DNA from: Armatimonadota bacterium
GTDB lineage: Bacteria > Armatimonadota > Armatimonadia > Armatimonadales > Capsulimonadaceae
DNA: 38,040 nucleotides
Direction of reading: 5' to 3'
Assembly (NCBI GenBank): GCA_019239955.1
Contig: JAFAZD010000166.1
Coordinates: 1 to 38,040, forward strand
Shown: in pieces, positions 2,777 to 22,722 of the stretch
How positions within the stretch are numbered: the stretch's first letter is position 1
How the letters are laid out: every line of letters begins with the position of its first letter
Made by a program: the position numbers and the translations under genes
The notes under the pieces: model-generated
The model's input: the letters and a program-made list of their open reading frames with translations, nothing else
Told to the model about the DNA's origin: nothing
Databases searched by the model: none

Positions 2777-3541
2777 ATGCCTTCTCTTGACGGAAAGGTG
2801 GCGGTGGTGACGGGGGCCAGCCGCGGCATTGGCCGCGCCATCGCCCTGCGGCTCGCCGCCGAGGGCGCCCGCGTCGTCCTCAGCGCCCGCGATCAAGACG
2901 CACTTCACGCCGCCGTCGGCGAGATCGCGCAGGCGGGCGGGGCGGCGGACGCCATTGCCCTGGACCTGCGCGAATCGGAGGCTGCCGGGGAGCTGGCCCA
3001 GTTCGCCCAGGAGCGGTTCGGGGCCATTGACATCGTCGTCAACAACGCCGGGGCGACAAAGCGTGGGGAGTTTTTAGCCCTGCCCGACGAGGACTGGGCG
3101 GACGGGTTCGCGCTCAAGTTCTTCGGCGCCGTTCGCCTCACCCGCGCCGCCTGGCCCGCCCTGACGGACTCGCACGGATCCGTGCTGAACATCGCGGGGG
3201 TCGGGGGCCGGACACCGGGGGCAGAGTTCAGCATCGGCGGCTCCGTCAATGCGGCGCTGCTGGCCCTGACCAAATCGCTTGCCGACGTGGGCATCCGAGA
3301 CGGCGTACAGGTCAATGCCATCAACCCCGGCCCGGTCCGCACGGATCGTCTGACCCGGCGGCTGGCCGCCCTGGGGACGGACGTGGCGGCGGAAGCGCAA
3401 TTCGTGCGGGTGGCCCAGATCACGCGCATCGGCGAGCCGGCGGACATCGCTGGCCTAGCGGCCTTCATCGTCGGCCCTGCCGGACGGTGGCTTCAGGGGG
3501 CGCTGATTGATATGGACGGCGGCCAGACCAAGACGCTCTAA
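2777..3541 (+). CDS. SDR-family protein lacking the canonical catalytic tetrad
   Basis: A 254-residue Rossmann-fold short-chain dehydrogenase/reductase, like FabG-type 3-oxoacyl reductases. The cofactor motif TGASRGIG (12-19), NNAG (89-92) and the C-terminal INPGPVRTD (182-190) and MDGGQT are intact. The active site is not: where classical SDRs have Ser and YxxxK there is NIAG (138-141) and GGSVNAALLALTKSLA (154-169), so the Tyr aligns with Gly and the Lys with Asn, and the helix-4 Asn is also missing. A subgroup of FabG-like SDRs carries a similar GGxxNAAL segment, so this may be a natural variant with a different chemistry or a binding role. The ATG at 2777 has a strong AAAGGAG site eight bases upstream. 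It diverges from larE with a 43-base gap. Confidence 0.85.
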   Translation: MPSLDGKVAVVTGASRGIGRAIALRLAAEGARVVLSARDQDALHAAVGEIAQAGGAADAIALDLRESEAAGELAQFAQERFGAIDIVVNNAGATKRGEFLALPDEDWADGFALKFFGAVRLTRAAWPALTDSHGSVLNIAGVGGRTPGAEFSIGGSVNAALLALTKSLADVGIRDGVQVNAINPGPVRTDRLTRRLAALGTDVAAEAQFVRVAQITRIGEPADIAGLAAFIVGPAGRWLQGALIDMDGGQTKTL

Positions 3542-3542
3542 A

Positions 3543-3791
3543 TCAGGCCCCGGCCATTCCCGGCGTAGTGCCCGTGGATAACACCGGCCACGCGAACGCC
3601 TCCGCCTTGACGGCCTGGTAGTTGGCGTCCAGGGCAGGTTCGAGCAGGCGCAGGGCGGCCAGGCGGCGAACAGTCTGCGTCACCTCCCGCGCCTCGGCGG
3701 GCGTCAGGTCCCGCCCCAGCACCCCAAACTCGCGGTACGAGAGCCACTTCTTCACCACCTGGTAGCCGCCGATGGCGTAGTCCCGGACGTG
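3543..3791 (-). pseudogene. Remnant of the C-terminal end of a type IIG/ISP-like restriction enzyme
   Basis: Positions 3588-3789 duplicate 5967-6168, the 3' end of the intact restriction enzyme gene, over 202 bases without gaps and with 17 mismatches by eye. The open frame encodes [18 protein letters not shown] and onwards, then a different tail ending in a stop at 3543. There is no start codon in frame that would give a sensible protein, and the similarity stops exactly where the ptuB stop codon begins, so this is a gene fragment. Eight of the 17 differences are silent, which suggests it derives from a sister allele that was under selection rather than from a recent local copy. It forms one of two direct repeats flanking the Septu-like genes. 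Confidence 0.85.
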
Positions 3792-3792
3792 C

Positions 3793-4602
3793 CTACCATC
3801 CTAATGCTTCAGGGGCCGCTTCAAACAAGTCCCTAAGTCGCGGCAATCTGGATTGCTGCCGTTTCATCTCCTGCCAGACTGTGGCATGAGACAGCCGTTG
3901 AATGGAATTGATCAAATTCTGTAGATTCTCCAGCGGCAGACCGTTCCGCTTCTCGTGAATGTACACTTTCAATCTGGCGACATAACCAGTAAACGCCTCC
4001 CGGCGGGCCTCGCGCAAGAATTCTCTGTCGTTGAGACGAAGAAGCTGGATTGTGTGCTCCGCCCGCAGGTATTCGCGGGAACCGGGAGCCGCAAGCGGGA
4101 CAAAGTAAAAACTGCCGCGCAGGTCCAGTATCATGAAGTCCAGCGGGTTTTCCGTCCTCGGATTGATTAGCAGGGGATCACCGGCTTCGGGAGGCACGAC
4201 GGGGTCATTGCGCCGGCGCGTCACCTCCATGGCCTGACCTGTCACCTGGGAAAAGATGACGCACCTGCTCTGCTTGGGGCTATTACATCCGCTACAGGCG
4301 TACAGATAGTTTTCCCAGACGAAGACCAGTTCCGGGTATAGGTCCTTTGGCTTGATGTGTTCGACATCCGTGCCGGCGGAGTCTTCGCAGTAGCAGCACC
4401 GCTGGGCGCCGGAACACATCGCGCTCAACGCCCGGCGCACCTGGCGGAATGTGGGGTTTGTCGGGAAGTTCTTCAGTTGGAACAGCCGCTTTCCCTCCTC
4501 CACCCGCGCGGCGTAATCCGGGATGGCGTCAATCTGGCGCTGGAATCCTGCGAGGCCCTCCTGGGCGGATGGTGGCAGTGACACGTGGGGGAGACGGATC
4601 AT
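3793..4602 (-). CDS. ptuB: HNH endonuclease of a Septu-like defence system (PtuB-like)
   Basis: A 269-residue HNH nuclease of the type paired with AAA ATPases in the Septu anti-phage system and in some retrons. The zinc and catalytic core is seen as CCYCED (69-73, with C69 and C72), DVEHIKPK (79-86, with H82 as the HNH histidine), ENYLYACSGCN (97-107, with C103 and C106) and K110. Its start overlaps the end of the ATPase gene by four bases (ATGA), so the two are translationally coupled and probably act together. The stop codon abuts the duplicated restriction-enzyme remnant. No reverse transcriptase or msr-like region is near, so it is not part of a retron here. The PtuB name rests on motifs and the partner gene, not on a search. 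Confidence 0.85.
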   Translation of the reverse strand: MIRLPHVSLPPSAQEGLAGFQRQIDAIPDYAARVEEGKRLFQLKNFPTNPTFRQVRRALSAMCSGAQRCCYCEDSAGTDVEHIKPKDLYPELVFVWENYLYACSGCNSPKQSRCVIFSQVTGQAMEVTRRRNDPVVPPEAGDPLLINPRTENPLDFMILDLRGSFYFVPLAAPGSREYLRAEHTIQLLRLNDREFLREARREAFTGYVARLKVYIHEKRNGLPLENLQNLINSIQRLSHATVWQEMKRQQSRLPRLRDLFEAAPEALGW

Positions 4603-5882
4603 CGGCGGCCGTTTGTCGCGGCGAGTTCATTCGCCGACGTCGGCAGCGTCGCCCGGAGTTCCTCCTGCTCGCGCTTCTCCCCCTCCGAAAGATCGCGCTC
4701 CAGCTCGATGACGTTCAATTCGGCCAGGCGCTTCAACAGCCTTTTCGACTCGTCGGAGCGGGAGACGTTCCTGCCGAACATCTCCGTCCCATAGGCATCC
4801 AGGATGTTGCCGTAAAGCAGACGCTCTAACTCCACGCCGGTCACCATGCCGCCCGGTTCATGGCTGCCGGGGCGCGGCAGTTTCCAAACGGTCCCCACGG
4901 CTGCGGCCTGGCAGACGAGCGGGCTATGCGTCGTGACGATGAACTGAATTCGAGGAAAGTGCTCTCGGAACCACCGGCCGACCCGCTGCTGCCAGGAAGG
5001 ATGCAGATGGGCGTCTATCTCATCAATCAGCACGATCCCCGGCGCCTCGATCTGAGAATTGTCCAACGAGAAGACTCGGTCTCGCCCGTACACGTTCGCC
5101 ATCTGCCGGATCAGTTCCAGCGTCATGCTCAGAATGGAGCGATACCCGTCACTTAATTCTTCCACGGCGATCAGGCAGCCGTTGCCGTCCACAAAGCGGA
5201 CATCCGTTGACGTGACGTCTTTCAGCCGCGCCCCGTGCGGCAGAAAATCCTCTTGGTTGATGAACGCCTGTACCCGCTCCAAGAACTCGCCTTCGGGATT
5301 TTTCTCTAGCCGCTTGAACTGCAAGTCCTGGAGCCAGCGCAGCGTCTCCGTCAGCGCAACGCTCTCCCCGAATGCGGACAGGTGCGCCGCCAATTTCGGG
5401 TTGGAGAAGAAAATCTTTTCCTGATCCTTGTCGCCACCCGTGAAGCGTCGGAACGGGCCGTAGGCAGCACTGAACCAGCCGGACTTGCCTCCCCATACGT
5501 GCCTGTGCGATTTGTGTGCAGGAGATGGCTTCAGCTTAACCCCGTCCTGTTGTCGAATAAAGCTCAACTCCGCACCAAGGTAATAATACTGAGGCCGATT
5601 ACCCTGACCTGAGAATCGGTCATAGTGAGCGTCGTCTTCGATGGTGATGCGGATGCCGCCTGAACTCGTCCCCTCTCGCAGCCAATCATTCCAGTCCTGA
5701 CGTAAAGCCAGCGCCTCGGACGGGCCAACCAGAGCCAGGGCCACGGCCCTGATGAATGTTGACTTCCCGGAGCCATTGTCGCCGATGATGACGTGCCAGC
5801 CTGGCGCTTGCTCCGGATGAATTTGCCAATCAATCTTGGAGATCGAGCGGATATCCTGAATGTCTATTTTGATTAAATACAT
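4599..5882 (-). CDS. ptuA: AAA/ABC-type ATPase of a Septu-like defence system (PtuA-like)
   Basis: A 427-residue SMC/RecF-like ATPase: Walker A GDNGSGKST (34-42), a degenerate ABC signature LSDGYRS (243-249), Walker B IVLIDEID (283-290) and the H-switch TTHSP (317-321). There is no long coiled coil. A charged C-terminal segment (about 376-415) follows. Paired with an HNH nuclease it fits PtuA of the Septu system, in which the ATPase controls the nuclease during phage infection. It begins 54 bases after the restriction enzyme stop and overlaps ptuB by four bases, suggesting a common transcript. The last dozen codons (4617-4636) resemble the terminal repeat of the palindromic element found elsewhere in the window, so the C-terminus may have been altered by such an element. 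Confidence 0.87.
   Translation of the reverse strand: MYLIKIDIQDIRSISKIDWQIHPEQAPGWHVIIGDNGSGKSTFIRAVALALVGPSEALALRQDWNDWLREGTSSGGIRITIEDDAHYDRFSGQGNRPQYYYLGAELSFIRQQDGVKLKPSPAHKSHRHVWGGKSGWFSAAYGPFRRFTGGDKDQEKIFFSNPKLAAHLSAFGESVALTETLRWLQDLQFKRLEKNPEGEFLERVQAFINQEDFLPHGARLKDVTSTDVRFVDGNGCLIAVEELSDGYRSILSMTLELIRQMANVYGRDRVFSLDNSQIEAPGIVLIDEIDAHLHPSWQQRVGRWFREHFPRIQFIVTTHSPLVCQAAAVGTVWKLPRPGSHEPGGMVTGVELERLLYGNILDAYGTEMFGRNVSRSDESKRLLKRLAELNVIELERDLSEGEKREQEELRATLPTSANELAATNGRR
4617..4636. repeat. Single half-site of the palindromic element inside the ptuA 3' end
   Basis: On the minus strand this reads cggcgaatgaactcgccgcg, matching the 20-bp terminal repeat of the 131-bp element at 17 of 20 positions. 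No second arm or element body is seen nearby, so it is either a decayed solo end or chance similarity. It encodes the SANELAAT stretch at the PtuA C-terminus, much as the full element encodes SANEFAAS in one frame. Confidence 0.45.
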
Positions 5883-5936
5883 GGCGGCACCTGCCTGTCA
5901 CAGCATCAGTTCTATCAATTATGGCACAAGTTGCCC

Positions 5937-8900
5937 TCAATCAGCCAGGGACAGTCCCCCTGCTTCCCACGCGAACGCGGCCTCCTTGACGGCCTGATAG
6001 TTGGCGTCCAGGGCCGACTCCAGCAGGCGCAAGGCGGCCAGGCGGCGAACCGTCTGCGTCACCTCCCGCGCCTCGGCGGGCGTCAGGTCCCGGCCCAGCA
6101 CCCCAAACTCCCGGTATGAGAGCCACTTCTTGAGCACCTGGTAGCCGCCGATGGTGTAGTCCCAGACGCGGGCGGGGATGTTGCGCCAGTAGGCCGTGCC
6201 ATTGAGATACACGTCCCGGGTGGTCTCGCCCAGCAGGGCCGGCGCGTCGGCGTCCAGGGCCGCGCGTTCCTCCGGCGCGTAGTCGCGCGTGACGCTTTTT
6301 CCCTTGCCGGGCATGGTGACGCCCTCCTTGCCGCCGTGCCCCCACCCCGCCGTCACGCGCAGGTCGCCCGCCGCCGGGTCGAGCGCCCCGCCGCCGACGC
6401 GGGCGATGTTGCCCAGCATCCTCAGTTCGGGCCGGAGTGCGCCCTGCGTGACACCGGGGACGGGGGTTTCGGTGTCCAGCAGGGCGGCGACCTGGCGGCC
6501 CAGGGCGGCGGACGCTTGCAGTCGCTCGGCGTCAGCGGGCAGGGGAATGCGGGGCCAGTCCGCGCGGATGCCGTCGGCGTTCTCCGTCAGGTAGGCGGGG
6601 CTGTAGCCGATGGCGAGGGCGTGCATCCAGAGCAGCGCGGCGGTGTCCGCGTCGGCGTCTGGGTCGAGCAGGCCGAGGGCGGCGAGGTACTCGCAGGCGC
6701 TCTTGGAAAGGTTCGCCGTCGGTGCGTCCGCGTCACCGAGCAGTGACGTCCGCAGTTGCAGGGGAAAGTAATAGGCATGGCCGCGCAGGAAGTCGTTGTC
6801 GCCGAGCAACCGCGTGTACATGAGCGGAACGCCTTCAGGACGGGCGACACCCGCCGGACGGCTCATCAGAAAGGCATTGCCCGGCCAGCACTGCGCCCAG
6901 AGGGTTGGACGGGGTTCGTTCCAGAGGGGGCGGACGGTGCTGTAGTAGCACCAGCGCGTGTCAAACGGGCGCAAGGCGTAACGGCGCAGGCGGCCTTCCT
7001 GATACTTCTCCGCGCCGATGACTTTCGTGCGGGCCGCTTTCGCCTCAAAACGGGCGGCGTCTTCGGTCAGGCTCGTGCCCATCGCCCTCAGCGCATCCCA
7101 ACTGACGGCGGGGTTGTAGTACGCCTGCATCCGCTGTTCCAGTGCGTCACGGTCAATGTCCATCAGCGCCCCACCCCGCTTCTCCATCAGGCCGTTGCTG
7201 GGCGCGACGGCGCACAAATCCGTCAGGCGCGGCCACGCCTCGTAATGCGCGCCGACATCGGACGGGCGGAAGGAGAAGCGGTTGGCTTGGGTGGGGGCGG
7301 CGGGCAGGTAGTGCGCGTCCAACTCCGGGGCGTGCAGGCTCGCCAGCAGGTCGGCGCGCTTGGTGACGCCCCAGAACTGGCGGAAATGGACGCTCGGCTC
7401 CGAGACGCGCTGCGGGCGGCGCACCAGCAGGCCGATGGCCGTGCCCACGCGGATGCCCTCGCGGTTGTATTCGGTGGAAAAGACGCTGGGGTCCGGCTTG
7501 CCCTCCGGCGTCGTCTTGCCCGTCTCCCGGCTGTCCCCGTTCAGGCTGTCGAACCAGAGCGCGTCGAACTCACCCAGGAACCGCCGCCGCATCGTCACGA
7601 ACGACGGGTCGCTCAGGTAAGAGAAGTTTGAGATGTAGCAGACGACGCCCCGGCCCGCGCCCTCCGTGATGCACCGCTCGGCCAGGCGGAAGAAGCGCAC
7701 GTACAGGTCGTCCAGATTAAATTTCTTGATGCCCCACTCGGAAATCAGCCCCGCCTTGTACGGCTCGACCAGGCCCTGCTCCTCGGCGGGGCTGGTCCCG
7801 GCGAAGGCGTTGTACGGCGGGTTGCCTAAAATCACCAGAATCTTGCGGCTGTGCTTGACCTCCTCGGCGGCGTCGTACTCCTTTTTCAGATCGGGGAAGG
7901 CCAGGGCGAGCTGCTCCAACTGCTGCTTGACCTTTTCCGTCGGCGGCTCCCAGCCGGTGAGGGCGTTGGTGAGGAAGACGCCCGCGCGCTCCGCCGGCTG
8001 CCCGCCCTGCGCGGGGGCGAGCGGCGCGCCCGCGTTTTGCAGCAGCAGCCCCAGTTGCAGGTGCGCGACCACATAGGGCGCGGGCAAAATCTCGAAGCCG
8101 AAGACGCGCTCCCGCGCCGCTGTCTTCAAATCGCTGCCGCCGAGGGCGTCCCCGCCCTGCGCGTCCAGCGTCTTCTGGATCGTGTTCAGGACCTCCACCA
8201 GATAGGCCCCGGTGCCGCAGCAGGGGTCGAGCACGTAGACATTCGGGTCTGCCAGGCCGTCGGCGAGGCCCAGTTCCTCGCGCAAGGCCGTGTCCACGCG
8301 CGCGACCATGTAGCGGACGATCTCCGGCGGCGTGTACCAGACACCCAGGTCCTTGCGCAGCTCCGGGTCAAAGGCTTGCAGGAACGGCTCATAGAAATAC
8401 TGGACGGCGTGGCCCTGGTCGAAGCCCGCGAAGAACGCCGCGCGGTCCACCCGGTTGAGCGCCGCGCCGGTCCAGTCCAGCACCTCCACCAGCCCCAGCG
8501 CGCCCAGCTTGGACGGCTTGGAGACCTCCTCAAAGAGCGTCTGGATCATCGGCACGTGCAGGTAGTAGGCCGCCGTGCGCCAGTCGAAGGAAGAACCCCC
8601 CCCCGCTCGCTGAGGCTCGCCACCTCCCCCTGCCAGGGGGAGGGAAGGTGGCGGGGTCTGCTCGCGGCTCCAGAGGACCCAGGCGGAGAAGAGGCCGTAG
8701 AACAGCGTCTGCACCAGCGTCGAGCGGAAGAAGTGCTCGCCCTTCTCGCCCTGGAACGTCAGCCCCAGCGCCTCCTCCAAGGCAGTCCGCACCGGCGACA
8801 GCGCGGGCAGGCCGGCGTTCTCAACGCGGCTCCGGGCGTCGCGCGCGTAGGACGCCAGGAACCAGGCCACGTCCTGCGGCGTCGCCAGCGGCGCGGCGTG

Positions 8901-9431
8901 CAGCAGGACGCGCTTCAAGTATTCGGCGAACCGCTCCGCCAGCCCCTCCGGCGTCGCCTGGGGCTGGGCCGCCAGCGTCCAGAACGCGGCCTCGGTGGAG
9001 GCGAGCGAGAACCCTTCCAGAATCGCCTTCCGCCCCCCGGCGTCTCTGCCGACCAACGCGAAGTCGCGCAGGTTGGTCACGAGCACCTGCCCGTACTTGT
9101 CCCAATACTTCTGCACCTGCGCGCCCGCCGCGATCTTGGCGACCTCGTCGCCCGTCCCCTTGACCTCCATCACCCCGCGCGCCGGCAGCAGCGCCGGCAG
9201 CAGGCCAGCGTCCTGCGCCTTCGCAAACTGATCGGGCGTGAACAGGCCGCCATCCGGCAGCCCCGCCCCCTGGTTCTTCAGGTTGATGATGCAGCGCACC
9301 GGCGGCTTGAGCGTCTTCCCCAGCGCGTTGAAGACGTTGCTGACCGCCGGGTAATACGAAGTCTCCTTGACGCCCGCCCCGGTGGCGCGGACGGCGTGGA
9401 GCTCCGAAAGGTAGATTTGCAGCAGGTTCAT
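5937..9431 (-). CDS. Single-chain restriction-modification enzyme, type IIG/ISP-like (nuclease + N6-adenine methyltransferase)
   Basis: A 1164-residue protein joining a putative PD-(D/E)xK nuclease (LPDGG with D60, then GVMEVKG with E89 and K91) to an N6-adenine methyltransferase. Methylase motifs are [14 protein letters not shown] (363-376), AdoMet motif [11 protein letters not shown] (401-410) and catalytic NPPY (537-540). The C-terminal half is long and resembles target-recognition regions of type ISP enzymes, but the SF2 helicase domain of true ISP enzymes is absent, so a type IIG-like layout is more likely. A GC-rich low-complexity stretch at about residues 259-281 is made by an in-frame palindromic repeat. 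ATG at 9431; no obvious ribosome binding site. It heads the transcript that continues into ptuA and ptuB, and its 3' end is duplicated beyond ptuB. Because one chain has both activities, no separate specificity subunit is needed. Confidence 0.88.
5967..6168 (-). repeat. Direct repeat copy A (3' end of the restriction enzyme gene)
   Basis: This 202-base stretch of the intact gene matches 3588-3789 in the same orientation with 17 mismatches and no gaps. The pair brackets ptuA and ptuB, about 2.1 kb. The repeats encode the last part of the target-recognition region; downstream of them the two C-terminal tails differ. Confidence 0.9.
8599..8656. repeat. In-frame GC-rich palindromic repeat in the restriction enzyme gene
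   Basis: An 8-bp perfect stem (8624-8631 with 8635-8642, loop gcc) is extended by ccacc/ggtgg and ccccgc/gcgggg arms. In the minus-strand reading frame it adds the low-complexity residues [20 protein letters not shown] between the nuclease and methylase parts. The composition is unlike the rest of the protein and like intergenic repeats elsewhere in the window. Confidence 0.65.
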
Positions 9432-15513: not shown

Positions 15514-15632
15514 CAGCGAGTGAATTCGCCGCTTCCGGCCTTTGGCCGAGTCTCCGCCTTCGCGGAGACGAGTCCTTGTCCGCACAGGCGGACAGTCGGC
15601 GTCCTCGCCCCCAGCGGCGAATTCGTGCGCTG
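15514..15632. repeat. 119-bp palindromic element (copy 2)
   Basis: Ends 15514-15533 and 15613-15632 are inverted repeats with three mismatches, and the left end matches copy 1 (1673-1692) at 19 of 20 positions. Internal hairpins are at 15551-15568 and 15577-15594, the latter with the same tgtccgc/gcggaca arms as copy 1. The interior is shorter than in copy 1, and comparison of the translated strands suggests that the copy is inserted in the opposite sense. Confidence 0.83.
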
Positions 15633-22591: not shown

Positions 22592-22722
22592 GGTAAACAA
22601 GTCCGCAAATTTATTCGCCGGGCACCCACTGACCGGGCCACTCCCATCAGAGAAAAAGACTGATCCTGTTTCTACCCCGCGTCCCGAAAGGACTCCCTGC
22701 CCCCGGCGGCGAACTGCCCTTC

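Follow-up and report, generated by a model that had tools for sequence, protein, structure and literature searches.

Analysis of a 38,040-nucleotide stretch of Armatimonadota DNA (the window) revealed a Septu gene pair, ptuA and ptuB, enclosed by two direct repeats of the 3′ end of a restriction-modification (RM) gene, with the RM gene itself on one side and a remnant of an RM tail on the other. The locus probably records one recombination event, as its scar, rather than offering defence genes a general docking site, and the remnant is, with moderate support from the pattern of sequence divergence, the tail of a sister allele that would have diverged for a long time under selection before it was truncated. 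The features of the locus are as follows.

5937..9431, minus strand: intact RM gene, encoding a single-chain protein of 1164 aa (open reading frame; Pfam, PADLOC).
5967..6168, minus strand: proximal repeat copy, inside the intact RM gene and encoding its residues 1088-1156 (repeat search, alignment).
5883..5966, minus strand: the nine codons that close the intact RM gene, its stop, and a 54-bp spacer.
4599..5882, minus strand: ptuA, Septu ATPase, 427 aa (PADLOC PDLC00269, 1.8e-161; alignment).
3793..4602, minus strand: ptuB, HNH-type nuclease of Septu, 269 aa (PADLOC PDLC00340, 2.6e-107; C termini of relatives).
3588..3789, minus strand: distal repeat copy, a remnant RM 3′ end in open frame without a start of its own.
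3543..3587, minus strand: stretch in which the remnant frame runs on to a stop of its own (..FAW-PVLSTGTTPGMAGA, then stop).
2777..3541, plus strand: short-chain dehydrogenase (SDR) gene, convergent, the right-hand neighbour of the remnant (Pfam adh_short_C2, 1e-46).

A repeat search placed the two copies at exactly the coordinates of the original prediction, ungapped over 202 nt and identical at 185/202 positions (92%; 17 differences), with ptuA and ptuB between them. That both encode the same C-terminal segment of the RM protein was likewise confirmed, the second tail copy matching residues 1088-1156 in a tblastn search of the genome with an E value of 6e-33, far beyond chance. The remnant, predicted to lie directly at the end of ptuB, starts 3 bp past the ptuB stop; it contains no stop or indel throughout the repeat and runs for 14 more codons to a stop of its own at 3543-3545, only 1 bp away from the stop of the convergent SDR gene. 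The ptuA, ptuB, and RM genes all look intact. A search of the genome for other pieces of the RM gene returned only the distal tail and, on contig C197, a paralogue at 32% identity; nothing from the 5′ part of a second copy turned up. At 80-874 the window also holds a 264-aa open reading frame with no Pfam match and a GC content of 0.565, below most of the window.

The RM protein combines an N6-adenine methyltransferase domain, its motifs retained (N6_Mtase, 3e-9), with a Type_ISP_C specificity domain (2.1e-34) in Pfam, matches the PADLOC model REase_MTase_IIG (1.6e-75), and carries a PDG..EVK motif, read by eye, that is typical of PD-(D/E)XK nucleases. Its methyltransferase core matches those of the Type IIG/IIL-like enzyme of PDB 7lo5 and of the Type ISP enzymes LlaGI and LlaBIII, and the Type ISP enzymes share with it both the methyltransferase and the Type_ISP_C domain. 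A true Type ISP enzyme has a helicase, however, and no helicase domain was found by Pfam in the 1164 residues of the window protein; nor was an SF2 helicase-like ATPase found between nuclease and methyltransferase, LlaGI and LlaBIII matching residues 341-696 only. It is therefore not a true Type ISP enzyme, although its nearest plasmid homologues, at no more than 54% amino acid identity, are annotated as "type ISP restriction/modification enzyme." Within the gene, at window positions ~8590-8660 (residues ~258-281), a low-complexity stretch with poor conservation holds the in-frame palindrome CCTCCCCCTGCCAGGGGGAGG, which has the look of a palindromic element that entered a coding sequence; ten palindromes of this type occur in the genome at one mismatch or fewer.

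Both Septu proteins match their PADLOC models over essentially their full length, and the genes are adjacent with a 4-bp overlap. The Walker A (GDNGSGKST) and Walker B (VLIDEIDAH) motifs of PtuA and the HNH-type motif of PtuB (CYCEDS..DVEHI..P.DLYP...N.L.AC..CN) are conserved in alignment. No reverse transcriptase domain, which would mean retron I-A, was found among the neighbouring proteins scanned, the direct neighbours of ptuAB being the RM and SDR genes. The spacer region at 5883-5966 contains TTGTGCCATAAT, an extended -10-like motif, and shows no sequence resemblance to the remnant side. Upstream of ptuA, an extended -10 motif resembling TTGTGNYATAAT is present in the window and at loci L210 and L211, and at L109 in the form CTGTGACATAAT; since the motif is common to the window and some relatives, the cassette probably brings its own predicted promoter.

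Twelve other ptuAB loci, 11 from Armatimonadota and one from a plasmid, were compared with the window. No member of the window RM gene family was found beside any of them, and none has long flanking repeats. By comparison with the PADLOC PtuA1/PtuB systems the genes are ordinary, and only the flanking RM-tail repeats are peculiar to the window locus. Neighbours identified at these other loci include genes for an oligopeptide transporter, superoxide dismutase, and DXP synthase. The plasmid pair, from Methylobacterium, lies near a gene annotated as a DNA methyltransferase, with a recombinase gene between them; among plasmids, the ten best matches to the RM gene do not include this one. Searches with the window ptuA gave no match in phages and only distant ATPases in viral contigs. 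Two ptuA copies in genome G007 (C7:7277-8545 and C1:434725-435630) both have an internal TAG in the search translation and are possible pseudogenes; the C1 open reading frame has a GC content of 0.36 against 0.60 in its surroundings. The comparison does not demonstrate the predicted arrival of RM and Septu as one module: no RM gene of the family was found beside ptuAB at the 12 other loci, and ptuAB has a GC content of 0.58-0.59 (GC3 about 0.71-0.73), whereas the RM gene, at 0.69 (GC3 0.90), resembles the surrounding genes. Because of this difference, joint arrival would need a recent joining of ptuAB to a host-like RM gene in the donor.

The divergence of the two tails bears directly on the origin of the remnant. 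The earlier count of eight silent changes among 17 differences was correct in its total and was refined in its parts: 14 codons differ, 8 of them synonymously, and the Nei-Gojobori method assigns 10.5 of the 17 changes to synonymous and 6.5 to nonsynonymous sites (dN 0.045, dS 0.23, dN/dS 0.20). In simulations, neutral decay of the remnant alone gave as few nonsynonymous changes at p 0.001-0.01 and is rejected as the source of the differences. Duplication followed by equal-time divergence with a neutral remnant (p 0.02-0.10) is weakly rejected, in a test that rests on 17 differences. A stop was present in about half of the neutral simulations, and the remnant has none. Amino acid changes fall on both branches of the tree (lengths 0.046 and 0.064), where the remnant has lost a near-invariant Trp (46/48 relatives) and the intact copy a common Pro (35/48 relatives). 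The constrained divergence, the changes on both branches, and the open frame favour a sister allele. Against this, and against allele replacement generally, each tail has the other as its closest known relative (91% amino acid identity versus no more than 72% for the next), so that the remnant pairs with the local intact gene as duplication also predicts; this closeness is uninformative by itself because the closest known RM protein is only ~65% identical overall. No close RM allele was found in the phylum (291 genomes) or in the contig collection, and a search for an empty site by SDR synteny revealed no shared neighbours in relatives, whose SDR orthologues are 65-70% identical at the amino acid level. 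The predicted sister-allele origin has moderate support from the substitution pattern, with duplication a less probable source.

The junctions provide a second line of evidence. The end of ptuB is native, with PEALGW before the stop as compared with PEALTW, PEALSW, and PEAMVW in relatives, and the remnant, which begins at about codon 1087 of the RM gene, is joined to ptuB without homology beyond a few bases. Recombination within a conserved 3′ end, as originally proposed, is consequently only part of the explanation: good conservation of that end is confined to residues 1081-1120, and the junction between ptuB and the remnant, being non-homologous, could not arise by homologous recombination alone. 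At the opposite end the tail copies agree up to Trp1156 (position 5967 in one copy and 3588 in the other) and have no similarity thereafter, the intact RM protein ending in EAGGLSLAD and the remnant in PVLSTGTTPGMAGA. W-P is the common ending in the RM family and the remnant has this form, which suggests that its C terminus is probably the native end of the other allele. The family C terminus is hypervariable beyond the Trp, so that alleles can differ there naturally, and the break at Trp1156 was rejected as proof of an insertion at that point.

The best account, with about even odds of being right, is that an incoming RM-ptuAB allele was integrated by homologous recombination on one side and by an illegitimate join in the resident tail on the other. 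The site would first have held an older RM gene alone, convergent on the SDR gene, while in a related lineage ptuAB would already have settled after the RM stop codon. DNA from that lineage would then have entered and recombined by homology with the resident RM gene on its upstream side, and its other end, just past the ptuB stop, would have been joined without homology into codon ~1087, replacing all but the last ~250 bp of the resident gene. An equivalent route would pass through a brief tandem RM-ptuAB-RM arrangement from which the second RM body was deleted. One-sided homologous and illegitimate integration has been described in competent bacteria and in Escherichia coli conjugation (PMC3240628). 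Such homology-facilitated illegitimate recombination leaves one homologous and one non-homologous junction; the latter is seen at the ptuB end of the window locus, and the homologous crossover would be locatable only with the parental alleles.

The main rival is a long target duplication, in which the single resident RM gene received the ptuAB cassette (3790-5966) in its 3′ end, ~200 bp of target being duplicated in the process and the copies having since diverged by 8%; the proximal copy would be closed by an insert-derived nine-codon end and the distal copy would keep the native end. The topology fits exactly, with both junctions coinciding with the repeat ends and long direct target repeats (202 bp, 92%) flanking the insert, and ptuAB is a compact, lower-GC unit with a promoter-like motif common to some relatives, found by itself at other sites in the phylum. 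RM gene insertions accompanied by target duplications on the order of 100 bp are described in PMC3874152 and PMC1643837, and the insertion of Nobusato et al. (2000), as cited there, likewise involves long target repeats at an RM gene; in the window, however, the insert is Septu, the RM gene is the target, and the repeats are 8% diverged in a constrained pattern. Duplication predicts mostly nonsynonymous divergence on the remnant branch, whereas dN/dS is 0.20 and both branches have changed. It also requires a dead fragment of ~250 bp to survive to a dS of 0.23 without a stop or indel, and it finds no parallel in flanking repeats at the other ptuAB loci examined. This explanation is considered unlikely.

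Tandem RM paralogues flanking ptuAB (RM-ptuAB-RM2), with most of RM2 later deleted, would yield the same anatomy and the same constrained divergence with no need for transfer of a Septu-bearing allele. It is nonetheless quite improbable, as no relative locus examined has two RM copies and the two family members of genome G047 are on separate contigs. A 2.38-kb circle of RM tail and ptuAB, released from a repeat-flanked locus of another strain and integrated by one homologous crossover into the resident tail, is very improbable. A Campbell-type crossover would give exactly such direct repeats, allelic divergence, and two native-like ends, but an earlier repeat-flanked locus is required, and the 46 RM relatives and 12 further ptuAB loci examined include no second locus of this kind. 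This explanation implies a reversible cassette for which the RM tail is the attachment homology. That the tail is indeed a recombination handle by which a 2.4-kb Septu circle (tail, promoter, and ptuAB) moves in and out of RM genes is the least probable proposal of all; if true, the circle would restore the RM reading frame each time and move without a recombinase of its own. Fusion of two strains' versions of the locus in assembly is scarcely probable either: the source is a metagenome-assembled genome (MAG) of 409 contigs with 5.55% contamination and near-identical tails are classic strain-variant material, but ptuB meets the remnant without overlap and outside the shared sequence, where assemblers normally do not join, and the window is free of N.

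The window also contains members of a high-copy palindromic (REP/MITE-like) family. An inverted-repeat element at 1673-1803 has arms at 1673-1692 and 1784-1803 with the sequence GCGAATGAATTCGC, which occurs in the genome in 57 forward and 51 reverse copies as compared with none for the reversed control; the copies often face each other in pairs at a spacing of ~75-130 bp. Further arm-like matches with one to three mismatches lie at 4619-4636 (inside the 3′ end of ptuA), 15516-15630, and 22603-22620, and 12 arm-like matches were observed in the window where 0.56 were expected.

The suggestion that the RM 3′ end is a repeated landing site for defence cargo was not supported by a survey of 46 distinct RM relatives with at least 1 kb of downstream sequence (39, and 7 more once two duplicate entries of contigs already counted were removed). 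Each downstream region was searched with the relative's own tail by blastn and tblastn, short low-scoring or opposite-strand matches being discarded. A duplicated tail was found in 0/46, none had other cargo between tails, and no repeat-flanked ptuAB was found at the 12 other loci examined. What follows the RM family varies, with defence or TA genes frequent: in chromosomes and MAGs, AbiTii, Fic, RhuM-Fic, the PADLOC candidate PDC-M36A, an OLD-like TOPRIM protein, and a Schlafen/AlbA protein; on plasmids, an Abi-family protein, an AAA ATPase, and TcmP-type genes. Other relatives are followed by housekeeping genes (DHFR, isocitrate dehydrogenase, DsbD). The RM gene often has downstream of it, within ~300 bp and in the same orientation, a different gene of defence or toxin-like type (Abi, AAA ATPase, DUF5131/TcmP, AbiTii, Fic); such loci include L135, L136, and L137, from Sphingomonas and Rhizobium plasmids, and L052, L090, and L094. 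This variable cargo is the usual turnover of a defence island next to a mobile RM gene, and the window locus reveals no new landing-site mechanism.

The locus today would comprise two ordinary defences side by side, where the RM enzyme cuts unmodified DNA and PtuAB acts as the ATPase-nuclease pair of Septu, next to a remnant that is probably inert. The direct repeats could still allow loss or amplification of the 2.38-kb ptuAB unit by recombination. Septu is seen here to move as a bare two-gene unit in Armatimonadota, and the repeats provide a readable scar of the coupling of an RM gene with a defence cassette, with no recombinase in evidence.
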